Below are positions 41,502 through 51,960 of a stretch of 64,000 nt of DNA, in pieces. The position numbers and the translations under genes are program-made. The DNA comes from Catenulispora acidiphila DSM 44928. Lineage in GTDB: Bacteria > Actinomycetota > Actinomycetes > Streptomycetales > Catenulisporaceae. Every line of letters starts with the position of its first letter. Position 1 is the stretch's first letter. Under the pieces are notes generated by a model, which saw only the letters and a program-made list of their open reading frames with translations, was not told where the DNA came from and made no database searches. The stretch lies in NCBI RefSeq assembly GCF_000024025.1, contig NC_013131.1:7006001-7070000 (forward strand), given 5' to 3'.

Positions 41502-42293
41502 TCAGTCGCGCACCAACTCCCACAACCGGGCCCAGTCCTCGGCCGCCAAGTCCTTGGGCAGAGCCCGGACCGGAATCCGGCTCCAGCGGACCCACTCCCG
41601 CAACTCGGCACGCCGCACCCGACCCGTGCGCGCGATCATCTCCTCCACCCCGCGCCCCGGCGCCTGGAAGACTTGCTTCACAAAGGTCTGATACCCGCTT
41701 CGCTCCTCGACCAGCGGCACGGGACGGCGCCACATCGTGAGCAGCCCGGCGTCCACCGACGGCACCGGCCGGAACGCGGACGCCGGGATCCGGCGGACCA
41801 GACCGAAGTCGTACCAGGGCCACCACGAGGCTGTCAGCATGCTGGCACCGCCGACCCCGGCCCGCCGCCGCGCCACCTCCCACTGCACGATCAGCACGGC
41901 GCTGCTCCATCCGCGCTCGGATAGCAGCTTCCTAATGATCGCGGTCGTCAGGTGGAACGGGATATTGCCGACGATCGTGTGCTCCGCGGCCGGAAACCGG
42001 TAGCGCAGCACGTCGGCACGCACCACATCCGCCCGACCGCCGAACCGCTCCTGAAGCCGCCGCACCCGACGCGGATCGATCTCCAATGCCGTGACCGGCC
42101 GATTCAGCCGGGAGAGCGGTCCGGTCAGCGCGCCGTCGCCGGCGCCGAGTTCGATGATCGGACCCTGCGTCTGCTCGCGGACCAGCCGCTGGATTTCGGC
42201 GATCAGCGCCGGATCGGCAAGGAAGTTCTGCCCGAGTTCCTGGCGCCCGCCAGGGAATTCGGACACGTAAGGGGAAGTCTTGTGGCGCTGCAT
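41502..42293 (-). CDS. Erm-type 23S rRNA (adenine-N6) methyltransferase
   Basis: 263 residues from the ATG at 42293 (GGAG eight bases upstream; the longer frame to 42335 lacks a site). The Erm/KsgA motifs are present: RQELGQNFLADPALIAEIQR, IIELGAGDGALTGPLSRL (SAM motif I), ALEIDPRRVRRLQERFG, DVLRYRF and catalytic NIPFHLTTAI. SVLIVQWEVARRRAGVGG-like text and MLTASWWPWYDFGLV are typical of the actinobacterial Erm subgroup rather than KsgA. Such enzymes methylate A2058 of 23S rRNA and block macrolide, lincosamide and streptogramin B binding. Self-protection or intrinsic resistance is likely. Confidence 0.93.
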   Translation of the reverse strand: MQRHKTSPYVSEFPGGRQELGQNFLADPALIAEIQRLVREQTQGPIIELGAGDGALTGPLSRLNRPVTALEIDPRRVRRLQERFGGRADVVRADVLRYRFPAAEHTIVGNIPFHLTTAIIRKLLSERGWSSAVLIVQWEVARRRAGVGGASMLTASWWPWYDFGLVRRIPASAFRPVPSVDAGLLTMWRRPVPLVEERSGYQTFVKQVFQAPGRGVEEMIARTGRVRRAELREWVRWSRIPVRALPKDLAAEDWARLWELVRD

Positions 42294-42365
42294 GTGGTGC
42301 TCCGCGGCTCGCTCGCGATCGAAGCCGGGCAGCACTGAACGACCGCACCGGCAGGGACTCGGATG

Positions 42366-42415
42366 CGGCGGGACTGGCGGATCAGGGGATCAGCTACCCG
42401 CCGTCAGAGGCGGGT
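42366..42415 (-). promoter_or_regulatory. mutually exclusive hairpins upstream of erm (candidate attenuator)
   Basis: On the minus strand, region 1 (ACCCGCC, 42415-42409) pairs with region 2 (GGCGGGT, 42402-42396) as a seven-base stem. Region 2 read as CGGCGGG (42403-42397) can instead pair with region 3 (CCCGCCG, 42372-42366), also seven bases. Region 1 lies in the last codons of the candidate leader peptide. This is the layout of a ribosome-stalling attenuator. Confidence 0.45.
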
Positions 42416-42442
42416 GCGAATGATCATCGCGGTGCAACACAT
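42404..42442 (-). CDS. candidate 12-residue Erm leader peptide MCCTAMIIRTRL
   Basis: An ATG at 42442 opens a 12-codon frame ending at 42404, 111 bases upstream of the erm start. It contains Arg-Thr-Arg, an R-x-R motif; macrolide-dependent ribosome stalling at Arg/Lys-x-Arg/Lys motifs is known from ErmD-type leaders. A TAGGCT box lies eight bases before the ATG, so the leader may be at the very 5' end of the mRNA. Its last codons form one arm of the hairpin described at 42366-42415. There is no independent proof of translation. Confidence 0.4.
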   Translation of the reverse strand: MCCTAMIIRTRL

Positions 42443-42514
42443 GGTCACGGAGCCTAGCAAGGGCGCGCTGGATCTTCCCGTCATTTATGTGGCTGTACGG
42501 CGGGAACGAGGGTG

Positions 42515-46231
<3,717 letters not shown>

Positions 46232-46284
46232 GCGACGGCACTTCCTCTCGCGGAGTCCGCGCTCCGCCTCGGGCTGATGGGGTG

Positions 46285-46375
46285 CGGACGGCAGGCAGTT
46301 CCTGGCTCGCGGCCCGAAGGTCGCTCACAGTTGCGGGACAGCGCCCGATTCGCACGGGCTTCCTGGGACTGTCGT
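46285..46375 (-). ncRNA. cobalamin (B12) riboswitch controlling cobN
   Basis: The minus strand shows the core of the class: CCAGGAAGCCCGTGCGAATC near 46365-46346, then GCGCTGTCCCGCAACTGTGA at 46343-46324, and the B12 box region GAGCCAGGAACTGCCTGCC near 46309-46291. These match the conserved GTGCGAATC, CCCGCAACTG and GCCAGG...CTGCC elements. It ends about 55 bases before the cobN start. A transcription terminator is not obvious, so it may act on the ribosome-binding site, as is usual in actinobacteria. Confidence 0.92.
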
Positions 46376-46425
46376 CTTGGTGCACAGTGTGCCAGATGGA
46401 CGGCGGAGGTCTACCGCTCTCCTCC

Positions 46426-51423: not shown

Positions 51424-51960
51424 ATGGTGACCGAGAACGGCCGGGCCGAGTTGCGGGAGTTCTACACCGACCCCGCCCTACCGCTGACGATCGCGGTGGG
51501 ACAGGCCTTCGACCTGGTGAGCATGCCGGCGGCCGTCGGGCACGCGGCGCTTGCGGCGCTGCGGGCCCGCAGAGTGCGGCTCGGTCCCGTCGTCGCCGAC
51601 TCGCGGAAGTCCGTGATGAGGGTGGGATTCCTGGTGGCTCCGGCGCATGCGCCGGACTCCCCGCACTCCACGCGGAGTCTCCGCGCAGAGGTAGGAACAT
51701 CGCCGGAAACCGTTCTGTACGCACAGAACGGCGCCGGGCACGCCGAGACCGCCGCGCTGCGCGACTGGGTCGGCCGATTAGGCGGGGCCCTCGGCGTCCG
51801 CGTCGGGGGCCGGGGCTCCACAGCCACTCTGCCGCCACTGTTGCCGTGGCGCGGGTGGCTGCACTGGCTTGTGCCGCCGGGCACCCCGGCAGTGCTGTGG
51901 ACGCCGGCCGGCGCGCTGCTGACGGTGCTCTCCGAGCGCACCGGAGCGCGCGCCTTGTGA
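51424..51960 (+). CDS. hypothetical protein, possibly related to primase-polymerase N-terminal domains
   Basis: 178 residues; GGGAGG lies five bases before the ATG at 51424. The text EFYTDPALPLTIAVGQAFDL, VSMPAAVGHAALAALRARRV, RLGPVV and VLWTPAGALLTVLSER gives an alpha/beta domain. The opening resembles the start of bifunctional primase/polymerase (Prim-Pol) N-terminal domains (AV/GxxFD, GPVA), but I see no catalytic Asp pair, so this is a weak guess. It is followed by a strong terminator. No export signal. Confidence 0.72.
   Translation: MVTENGRAELREFYTDPALPLTIAVGQAFDLVSMPAAVGHAALAALRARRVRLGPVVADSRKSVMRVGFLVAPAHAPDSPHSTRSLRAEVGTSPETVLYAQNGAGHAETAALRDWVGRLGGALGVRVGGRGSTATLPPLLPWRGWLHWLVPPGTPAVLWTPAGALLTVLSERTGARAL

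Follow-up and report, generated by a model that had tools for sequence, protein, structure and literature searches.

A short frame upstream of an erm gene in Catenulispora acidiphila encodes a peptide ending in Arg-Thr-Arg-Leu and is followed by RNA segments that can pair in alternative ways. This element is very probably a macrolide/ketolide-sensing leader peptide coupled to a translational attenuator, with a transcript that probably lacks a 5' untranslated leader. Similar frames, with the same kind of basic motif and promoter spacing, precede most of the Erm46-like genes sampled, and a related element stands before resistance-type genes of other kinds. The predicted drug-dependent arrest is modeled on that of ErmDL.

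A leader frame upstream of erm

The window is the whole 64,000-nt stretch analyzed, from a genome of 10,467,782 bases in a single contig. The features considered here lie on its minus strand, between cobN (which ends at 42515) and an Erm methylase gene (42293–41502). In order of transcription, they are:

42474–42488, minus strand: WblC/WhiB7-like promoter element ATAAAT-GAC-GGGAAG (putative activator site, 3 nt, –35), with 3 mismatches at 10 specified positions
42451–42456, minus strand: –10 box TAGGCT, 8 nt before the leader ATG; predicted leaderless start at ∼42442, from the sequence and from spacing in relatives
42404–42442, minus strand: leader peptide MCCTAMIIRTRL, stop TGA; kept in 9/9 Catenulispora species having erm
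42410–42418, minus strand: R-T-R codons CGC ACC CGC, predicted stall site (Thr10 in the P site, Arg11 in the A site), from codon usage and analogy with ErmDL
42409–42415, minus strand: region 1, ACCCGCC; pairs with region 2
42396–42403, minus strand: region 2, CGGCGGGT; partner, region 1 or region 3
42365–42372, minus strand: region 3, CCCGCCGC; partner, region 2 or region 4
42341–42352, minus strand: region 4, GCCGGTGCGGTC; partner, region 3 or region 5
42323–42335, minus strand: region 5, GTGCTGCCCGGCT; partner, region 4 or region 6
42297–42309, minus strand: region 6, AGCCGCGGAGCAC, containing the erm Shine–Dalgarno CGGAG (42304–42300); partner, region 5
41502–42293, minus strand: Erm 23S rRNA (A2058) methylase, 263 aa; 264.7 bits to NF000499 (cut-off 212)

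Direct reading of the sequence gives the frame ATG TGT TGC ACC GCG ATG ATC ATT CGC ACC CGC CTC TGA at 42442–42404. It encodes the 12-codon leader, with 110 nt between the stop codon and the erm ATG at 42293. An earlier note on this DNA, made from the letters alone, had the coordinates, peptide and pairings of this frame right, and the Erm identity that it proposed agrees with the NF000499 score. Among named models, the methylase scored highest with Erm46, Erm55 and Erm38, each time below the model's own cut-off, and its nearest named relatives by the erm gene are Catenulispora species. An Rfam search of the window gave no family above its gathering score at the leader; when 20 loci carrying the element were searched, the sole report was one tRNA. 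Elsewhere in the window lie an ordinary cobalamin riboswitch (RF00174, 44.5 bits, 46277–46411, minus strand), upstream of the cobaltochelatase gene cobN, and a tRNA-Ala (TGC; 51515–51600, plus strand), the sole tRNA gene detected there.

Conservation of the leader peptide

Nine of ten Catenulispora genomes (G000 to G009) have this Erm; the remaining one, G006 (77% complete), gave weak methylase matches only. All nine keep the frame and the hairpin arms, with leaders MCCTAMIIRTRL, MCCNAIFIRTRV, MCCFNAIFIRTRA, MCCNALFIRIRL (twice), MCCNAMIIRIRL, MCCNAISIRIRL, MCCCMMITRTRA and MCCCSPMTRIRRL. In the alignment of the nine, conservation extends to the nucleotides that follow the stop and to blocks around CCGCCGCAT, GCCGGTGCGG and GCTGCCCGGCT. 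Five named Erm loci were examined as well. The four from Catenulispora (C. rubra, C. pinisilvae, C. pinistramenti and one Catenulispora MAG) have an agreeing leader, and the locus of Nocardioides hwasunensis has no leaderless frame.

Beyond the genus, we analyzed 49 regions upstream of matches to the Erm46 model (E ≤ 1e-50), drawn from 46 genomes of the order and class samples; this set covers Erm46-like genes alone. The full signature comprised an RxR in the last six residues, a stem across the stop, and TAnnnT 6–8 nt before the start. It was present in 38 of the 49 regions, which are kin and hence not independent counts, versus 0.05 of 49 in dinucleotide shuffles (20 rounds). The reverse strand of the same regions gave 0/49. 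A second scan made no reference to residues and took all frames of 6–40 codons beginning 6–8 nt after TAnnnT. This yielded 43 frames in 42 of the 49 regions, and 42 of the 43 contained [R/K]xR within the last nine residues, including every frame with a stem (40/40). The exception was G724, whose KLRR lies further inside its frame; the set of 41 leaders used below also omits it. Regions lacking a leaderless frame were G738b, G673b, G518b, G951, G909, G868 and G1042. Judged by these counts, the leader frame is not a chance occurrence.

Across the 41 leaders, the N-terminal part varies in length and sequence while the basic motif is constant. Codons for the first basic residue are CGC (14), CGG (14), AGG (10), CGT (2) and AAG (1), and this variation suggests that charge, not the nucleotide, is conserved. 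The second Arg, located in helix 1:2, is encoded by CGC in 40 of 41 cases. Both the short frame and the R-x-R singled out in the earlier note are therefore kept in Catenulispora, and the R-x-R recurs outside the genus. Two loci were handled individually: the upstream boundary of G003 was placed by hand because its gene matched in two pieces, and G907 was scored from its second in-frame GTG, instead of its better ATG, in the leader table and in the promoter and energy scans.

A further 18 Erm loci are more distant; 8 of these could not be anchored, and several others lacked such a leader. Convergent erm pairs occur in G673, G738 and G518 (L065/L079, L064/L078 and L068/L080, respectively), with a leaderless frame on one gene per pair. 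Another erm group of the order (L012, L013 and L016–L019) has longer, GTG-started frames that carry R[MK]RRGPGALTGPG, shortly after a –10-like box. These frames are a different leader family. At L152 (G468), we noted a pikR2-like leader without the usual stop codon and TAnnnT box, followed only by an erm fragment.

Alternative pairing of six RNA segments

Region 2 has two pairing registers of 7 bp each, as the earlier note had described: GGCGGGT (42402–42396) matches region 1, and CGGCGGG (42403–42397) matches CCCGCCG (42372–42366) in region 3. A 2:3 helix of at least 7 bp was also found in 14 of 100 shuffles of the focal sequence, and the whole-leader fold had z = –2.2. In this lone GC-rich sequence the hairpins are not striking; across relatives they are. 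We assessed pairing in 25 sequences, nine from Catenulispora and 16 from other loci. The set 1:2, 3:4 and 5:6 (OFF) was formed in 92.0% of cells, compared with 36–63% in slid controls, and the set 2:3 and 4:5 (ON) in 96.5%, compared with 25–59%. The two sets are mutually exclusive, and the last arm holds the erm ribosome-binding site; the counts show that hairpins 1:2 and 2:3 are kept in orthologous loci and outside the genus.

The earlier note had also proposed that relatives be compared for covariation of regions 1–3. No double-sided change was seen in either the OFF or the ON structure over the 25 sequences. Pairing did not exceed the within-column shuffle control (92.0 versus 91.8% OFF, 96.5 versus 96.6% ON), because the arms are nearly invariant. 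The pairing is thus conserved without covariation. In distant lineages, helix 1:2 is built from other arms that are still complementary (CGCGCC/GGCGCG, CTGCGCCG/CGGCGCAG and GCCGCGCC/GGCGCGGC), and so is the longest Shine–Dalgarno helix (CGGCTT/AAGCCG, CCGGGA/TCCCGG, CCGGGT/ACCCGG and CTGCTCCG/CGGAGCAG). Taken alone, the Shine–Dalgarno hairpin stands out from shuffles in just 4 of 39 rows.

As a final arm over the erm start, the earlier note had proposed that GGTGC (42349–42345) pairs with GCACC (42300–42296). Both elements are present in the focal sequence, but GCACC occurs in only three of nine Catenulispora species. We dropped this pairing, and segments 4:5 and 5:6 take its place.

When RNAalifold was applied to the nine Catenulispora sequences, the OFF fold was not favored; the preferred structure combined 2:3, 4:5 and a helix joining the 5' end of the leader to the erm start. 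In Catenulispora (L069–L077), the leader's opening bases, ATGTGTTGC (42442–42434), can pair with the erm start, and elsewhere they hardly can; the mean rank of this helix among foreign partners is 0.019 in the genus versus 0.37 outside it. The weak value outside Catenulispora led us to reject the helix as a general mechanism, and we keep it as a possible third lock specific to the genus.

These pairings suggest how the element might work. In the absence of drug, the ribosome would complete the leader, helices 1:2, 3:4 and 5:6 would form, and the erm start would be concealed. If drug occupied the exit tunnel, the ribosome would stall with Thr10 in the P site and Arg11 not joined, a position expected by analogy with ErmDL. 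The stalled ribosome would cover region 1 and leave region 2 free. Helices 2:3 and 4:5 could then form, releasing segment 6 and the ribosome-binding site, so that Erm would be made and A2058 methylated.

Ribosome position and opening of the erm start

We calculated how much energy it takes to open the RNA from the Shine–Dalgarno through the erm start codon when the 5' part of the transcript is masked, as it would be by a ribosome. These are static energies, which ignore folding during transcription. The scan used 39 of the 41 leaders; G493 and G1091 were too long and were left out. With the masked edge 3–15 nt before the first base of the P-site codon, mean opening energy was 9.7–10.0 kcal/mol. 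It was lowest, at 7.3 kcal/mol, with the edge at +11/+12 past that base, and returned to 9.7–10.4 kcal/mol at +21 and further. The minimum fell within +6 to +15 in 31 of the 39 loci. An edge at +11/+12 is close to the position of the ribosomal helicase site. A footprint of ∼+15 had given a mixed result in Catenulispora, with Shine–Dalgarno exposure raised in six of nine, and was replaced since the scans place the optimum near +11/+12.

For comparison with shuffles, the masking length was picked after inspection of the Catenulispora data; at that length, the free state exceeded the stalled state by 3.5 kcal/mol, versus 1.7 in shuffles (highest set mean 2.35, 12 sets). The state with the ribosome past the stop exceeded the stalled state by 2.95 kcal/mol, versus 0.09 in shuffles (highest set mean 0.84). 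The focal sequence alone behaved differently. Its free minus stalled value was 2.2 kcal/mol, equaled in 6 of 12 shuffles, and its past-stop minus stalled value was –1.6, equaled in 11 of 12. G003 had no computed switch either. Hence the computed switch is weak in the focal RNA itself and fits on average over the 39 loci.

These energies bear on the level at which control is exerted. The leader could be real and yet act on transcription, with stalling governing early termination instead of opening of the erm ribosome-binding site. Terminator mechanisms are reported or proposed for WhiB7/WblC and for several actinomycete ABC-F uORFs in the parts of two sources available to us (PMC10727445, PMC12421871), and in a GC-rich genome the six segments could equally make a terminator and an antiterminator. 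A scan of 42200–42700 for sigma-70 and terminator consensus sequences found nothing, the terminator scan relying on a run of T. In addition, the energy of opening the start depends on where the ribosome stalls, more so than in shuffles. Of the 39 loci, 38 have a [C/T]GGAG ribosome-binding site (CGGAG in 32), although such motifs had guided the choice of sites. Overall, we consider transcriptional control unlikely, if worth keeping in view, and favor a predicted translational attenuator.

Promoter and transcript start

WblC-activated promoters of S. coelicolor have been described as GAAAWY, 3 bp, TKGMNN, 16–19 bp and TANNNT, with transcripts that begin 7–8 bp after the –10 (PMC7157823, in part). 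In 40 leaders with RxR plus stem, we sought a box 4–10 nt before the start, without demanding one. TAnnnT was found at 6–8 nt in 38 of these; one leader had it at 10 nt, and one had none. The spacing between –10 box and start codon suggests a leaderless transcript, probably starting at the leader ATG, a point on which the earlier note needs correction.

Of 41 erm leaders, 23 have the WblC composite at ≤2 mismatches in 10; shuffles yield 0.2 on average and 2 at most. An A/T element 29–35 nt before the –10 occurs in 31 of the 41 (0.65 on average and 3 at most in shuffles). The focal element is weak, with 3 mismatches in 10 against GAAAWY-N3-TKGMNN, and many relatives match better. The focal genome encodes a WhiB7-type protein with EPW and RGRP, which are motifs of such proteins (PMC10727445, in part). 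A promoter of the WblC/WhiB7 type probably adds a second drug response.

Might this promoter alone matter, with the small frame arising as a side effect of RNA structure and of a leaderless transcript? Besides the promoter counts just given, Erm(O) and Erm41, which are other Erm types, belong to WblC/WhiB7 regulons according to the sections available of PMC7157823 and PMC10727445. Yet the unselected leaderless frames had [R/K]xR near their end in 42 of 43 cases, the first basic residue changes its codon and hardly its charge, and the basic motif stays while the N-terminal region varies. We consider a promoter-only explanation very unlikely.

Polycysteine leaderless frames of mycobacteria have a Cys run and a sulfur-metabolism gene downstream. 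The conserved MCC start of the focal type could similarly sense cysteine supply, given that Cys makes up 70 of the 399 residues preceding the basic motif, where base composition predicts 17.2 and 2000 shuffles gave at most 32, and that it occurs in 31 of 41 erm leaders and in 11/11 LmrA-type leaders. We nonetheless rank this reading last and highly improbable: 10 of 41 erm leaders and 10 of 11 ABC-F leaders have no Cys, the downstream genes are erm, ABC-F, MFS or esterase-like and not of sulfur metabolism, a ribosome at codon 3 raised Shine–Dalgarno exposure in just four of nine Catenulispora leaders, and in Catenulispora TGTTGC also pairs with the erm start, another reason for its conservation.

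A drug-sensing RxR leader with an attenuator before erm, as read in the earlier note, is thus supported, the drug response itself being a prediction from sequence and analogy.

The same element before other resistance-type genes

A covariance model whose 131 positions begin at the RxR codons and end at the erm start was built on 25 erm leaders. It excludes the leader start and the promoter. In its own genome the model had one match, the focal site. It had 19 matches in 17 of 246 genomes of the class sample, 33 in 30 of 293 genomes of the order sample, and two in 2 of 203 genomes of the phylum sample, both already among the earlier matches. Combined, the searches give 51 places. The gene immediately downstream is erm in 22 of them, ABC-F in 12, an LmrA-like MFS gene in 11, an MFS gene from a second group in five and a gene for an EreB-like esterase in one, as called by tblastn for 50 places and by NCBIfam NF000209 for the esterase-like gene. 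Training sequences make up 17 of the 22 erm matches and none of the 29 others. In this respect too the earlier note is amended: the element is not specific to erm.

Names for the non-erm proteins denote best similarity only, all scores being below curated cut-offs. NCBIfam was run on 18 of the 29 and Pfam on 10; the rest were assigned by tblastn with three of those proteins as queries. The ABC-F proteins scored 235–263 bits with TlrC/CarA/OleB/SrmB (cut-off 800) and 239–266 with a general ABC-F protection model (cut-off 380). TlrC-type ABC-F proteins give resistance to macrolides and streptogramin B (PMC10201436, in part). The LmrA-like proteins scored 452–484 bits (cut-off 850). The EreB-like erythromycin esterase gene, at L159 (G555), scored 190 bits (cut-off 750) and has leader MFFCTGQGWFIKPRSAA. 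Among the second MFS group (L126, L128, L129, L130 and L133), four proteins were scanned: three had no drug name, and the fourth had a sub-cut-off match of EmrB type. We regard this group as candidate drug pumps. Broken or partial genes follow the element in G468 (erm) and in G472 and G546 (ABC-F).

The leader start lies outside the model. Of 28 non-erm places scanned (at L133, in G805, an MFS gene follows the element and the leader region is cut by the contig end), 25 have a frame that starts exactly 7 nt after TAnnnT; L128, L130 and L157 have no leaderless frame. The non-erm leader places, L125–L137 and L153–L170, include those of TlrC-like ABC-F and LmrA-like MFS genes. Leaders of ABC-F genes in the order sample are nearly invariant, with MARGIWSQKVRSAR in seven and MARGIWSQRTRSAR in one of the eight found, and the 11 LmrA-type leaders are MSAASCAAACAAVTRTLR and variants. 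The 25 non-erm leaders carry [R/K]xR (13), R-x-x-R (10) or neither (2), and 8 of the 25 have the A/T promoter element. In LmrA-type leaders, R-x-x-R may point to another inducer.

Opening energies were also computed for 22 non-erm leaders; three further rows were dropped, the start of L137 was mis-picked, and a stall codon was assumed for R-x-x-R. On this footing, the minimum fell within +6 to +15 in 13 of 22. For ABC-F leaders (n = 9), mean energy was 6.4 kcal/mol at +12 versus 9.7–11.6 before 0, and LmrA-type leaders (n = 10) had a dip at +6 (6.8 kcal/mol). The single esterase-type locus had no dip within +6 to +15.

Tentatively, and with slightly more doubt than confidence, we propose that one modular cassette, a leaderless peptide with a basic tail plus a six-segment switch, is common to four unrelated kinds of macrolide/lincosamide-type resistance gene in Actinomycetes. 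The tail would be an exchangeable drug code: RxR(R) for erm, (KV/RT)RSAR for TlrC-like ABC-F, and mostly VTR(T/A)xR for LmrA-like pumps. Two observations lower the odds of this reading: the sub-cut-off names of the non-erm proteins, and a WblC-type element in just 8 of their 25 leaders. RxR erm leader peptides are already known; the proposed leaderless cassette common to four unrelated gene types is the new part. A 2024 survey of erm upstream regions, in the portion available, found small frames without a universal conservation pattern (PMC11264731). Our literature search, mostly outside subscription papers, found no description of the cassette, which does not prove its absence.

A single pattern connects actinobacterial erm genes of the Erm46-like type, the mobile erm(X), erm(55) and erm(36) among them, with ABC-F, efflux and esterase-like genes. 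If these leaders respond to drugs, they would account for several defenses being co-induced by one drug class, they would offer a testable peptide code for drug specificity, and the switch could serve as a handle in searches for unknown resistance genes, such as the second MFS group. Producers of macrolides and natural ketolides are actinomycetes too.

Relation to known systems

The closest mechanistic parallel is ErmDL, whose +X+ motif mediates macrolide/ketolide arrest; it too is a short leader before erm, and in both cases Arg-x-Arg marks the stall site, which for the focal leader is a predicted one (PMC8298421, in part). Arrest on ErmDL places Leu7 of R-L-R in the P site; RxR is essential to the response to telithromycin and matters less for erythromycin (PMC8298421). 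Unlike ErmDL, the focal type is probably leaderless, is actinobacterial and has six segments, and its RxR lies 1–2 codons before the stop, inside the first hairpin.

The pikR2 leader of S. venezuelae offers a likeness in another genus. The leader of G673, MQFCHSQARYMRLRRS, is of the same class, and G673 is inferred to be S. venezuelae. Its convergent erm pair adjoins a type I polyketide synthase, an arrangement that we take to resemble pikR1/pikR2 of S. venezuelae, a natural ketolide producer. In the pikromycin producer, resistance is reported to be activated by ketolides only (PMC8298421, in part).

Mobile erm genes have comparable leaders. Among 40 plasmid records, six erm genes were examined: R. 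gordoniae erm(46), M. chelonae erm(55), that of Nocardioides pCHL, M. luteus erm(36), Corynebacterium erm(X) and that of Kocuria. All six have a frame 6–8 nt after TAnnnT, and five of the six have RxR. The leader is MLISGTAFLRLRSNR for erm(X) and MGITSVAVIRIRRF for erm(55); R. gordoniae erm(46) has TEFRRF in place of RxR. Leaders of erm(X), erm(46), erm(55) and erm(36) share frame placement with the focal type and differ in frame sequence. The erm(X) leader of corynebacteria has been mentioned as a possible attenuator (PMC3350403, in part).

The uORF attenuator of whiB7/wblC is, likewise, an actinobacterial uORF that senses ribosome-targeting drugs (PMC10727445, in part). It differs in that a terminator controls transcription of a regulator, whereas in the focal case a resistance gene follows and the terminator scan found none. 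The ErmCL leader has another stall motif, fewer segments and an ordinary ribosome-binding site; the focal type departs from it in stall motif and in its larger number of segments. What the two would share is the central step, in which a drug-stalled ribosome on the leader exposes the erm ribosome-binding site, as described for ermC (PMC6685928, in part).
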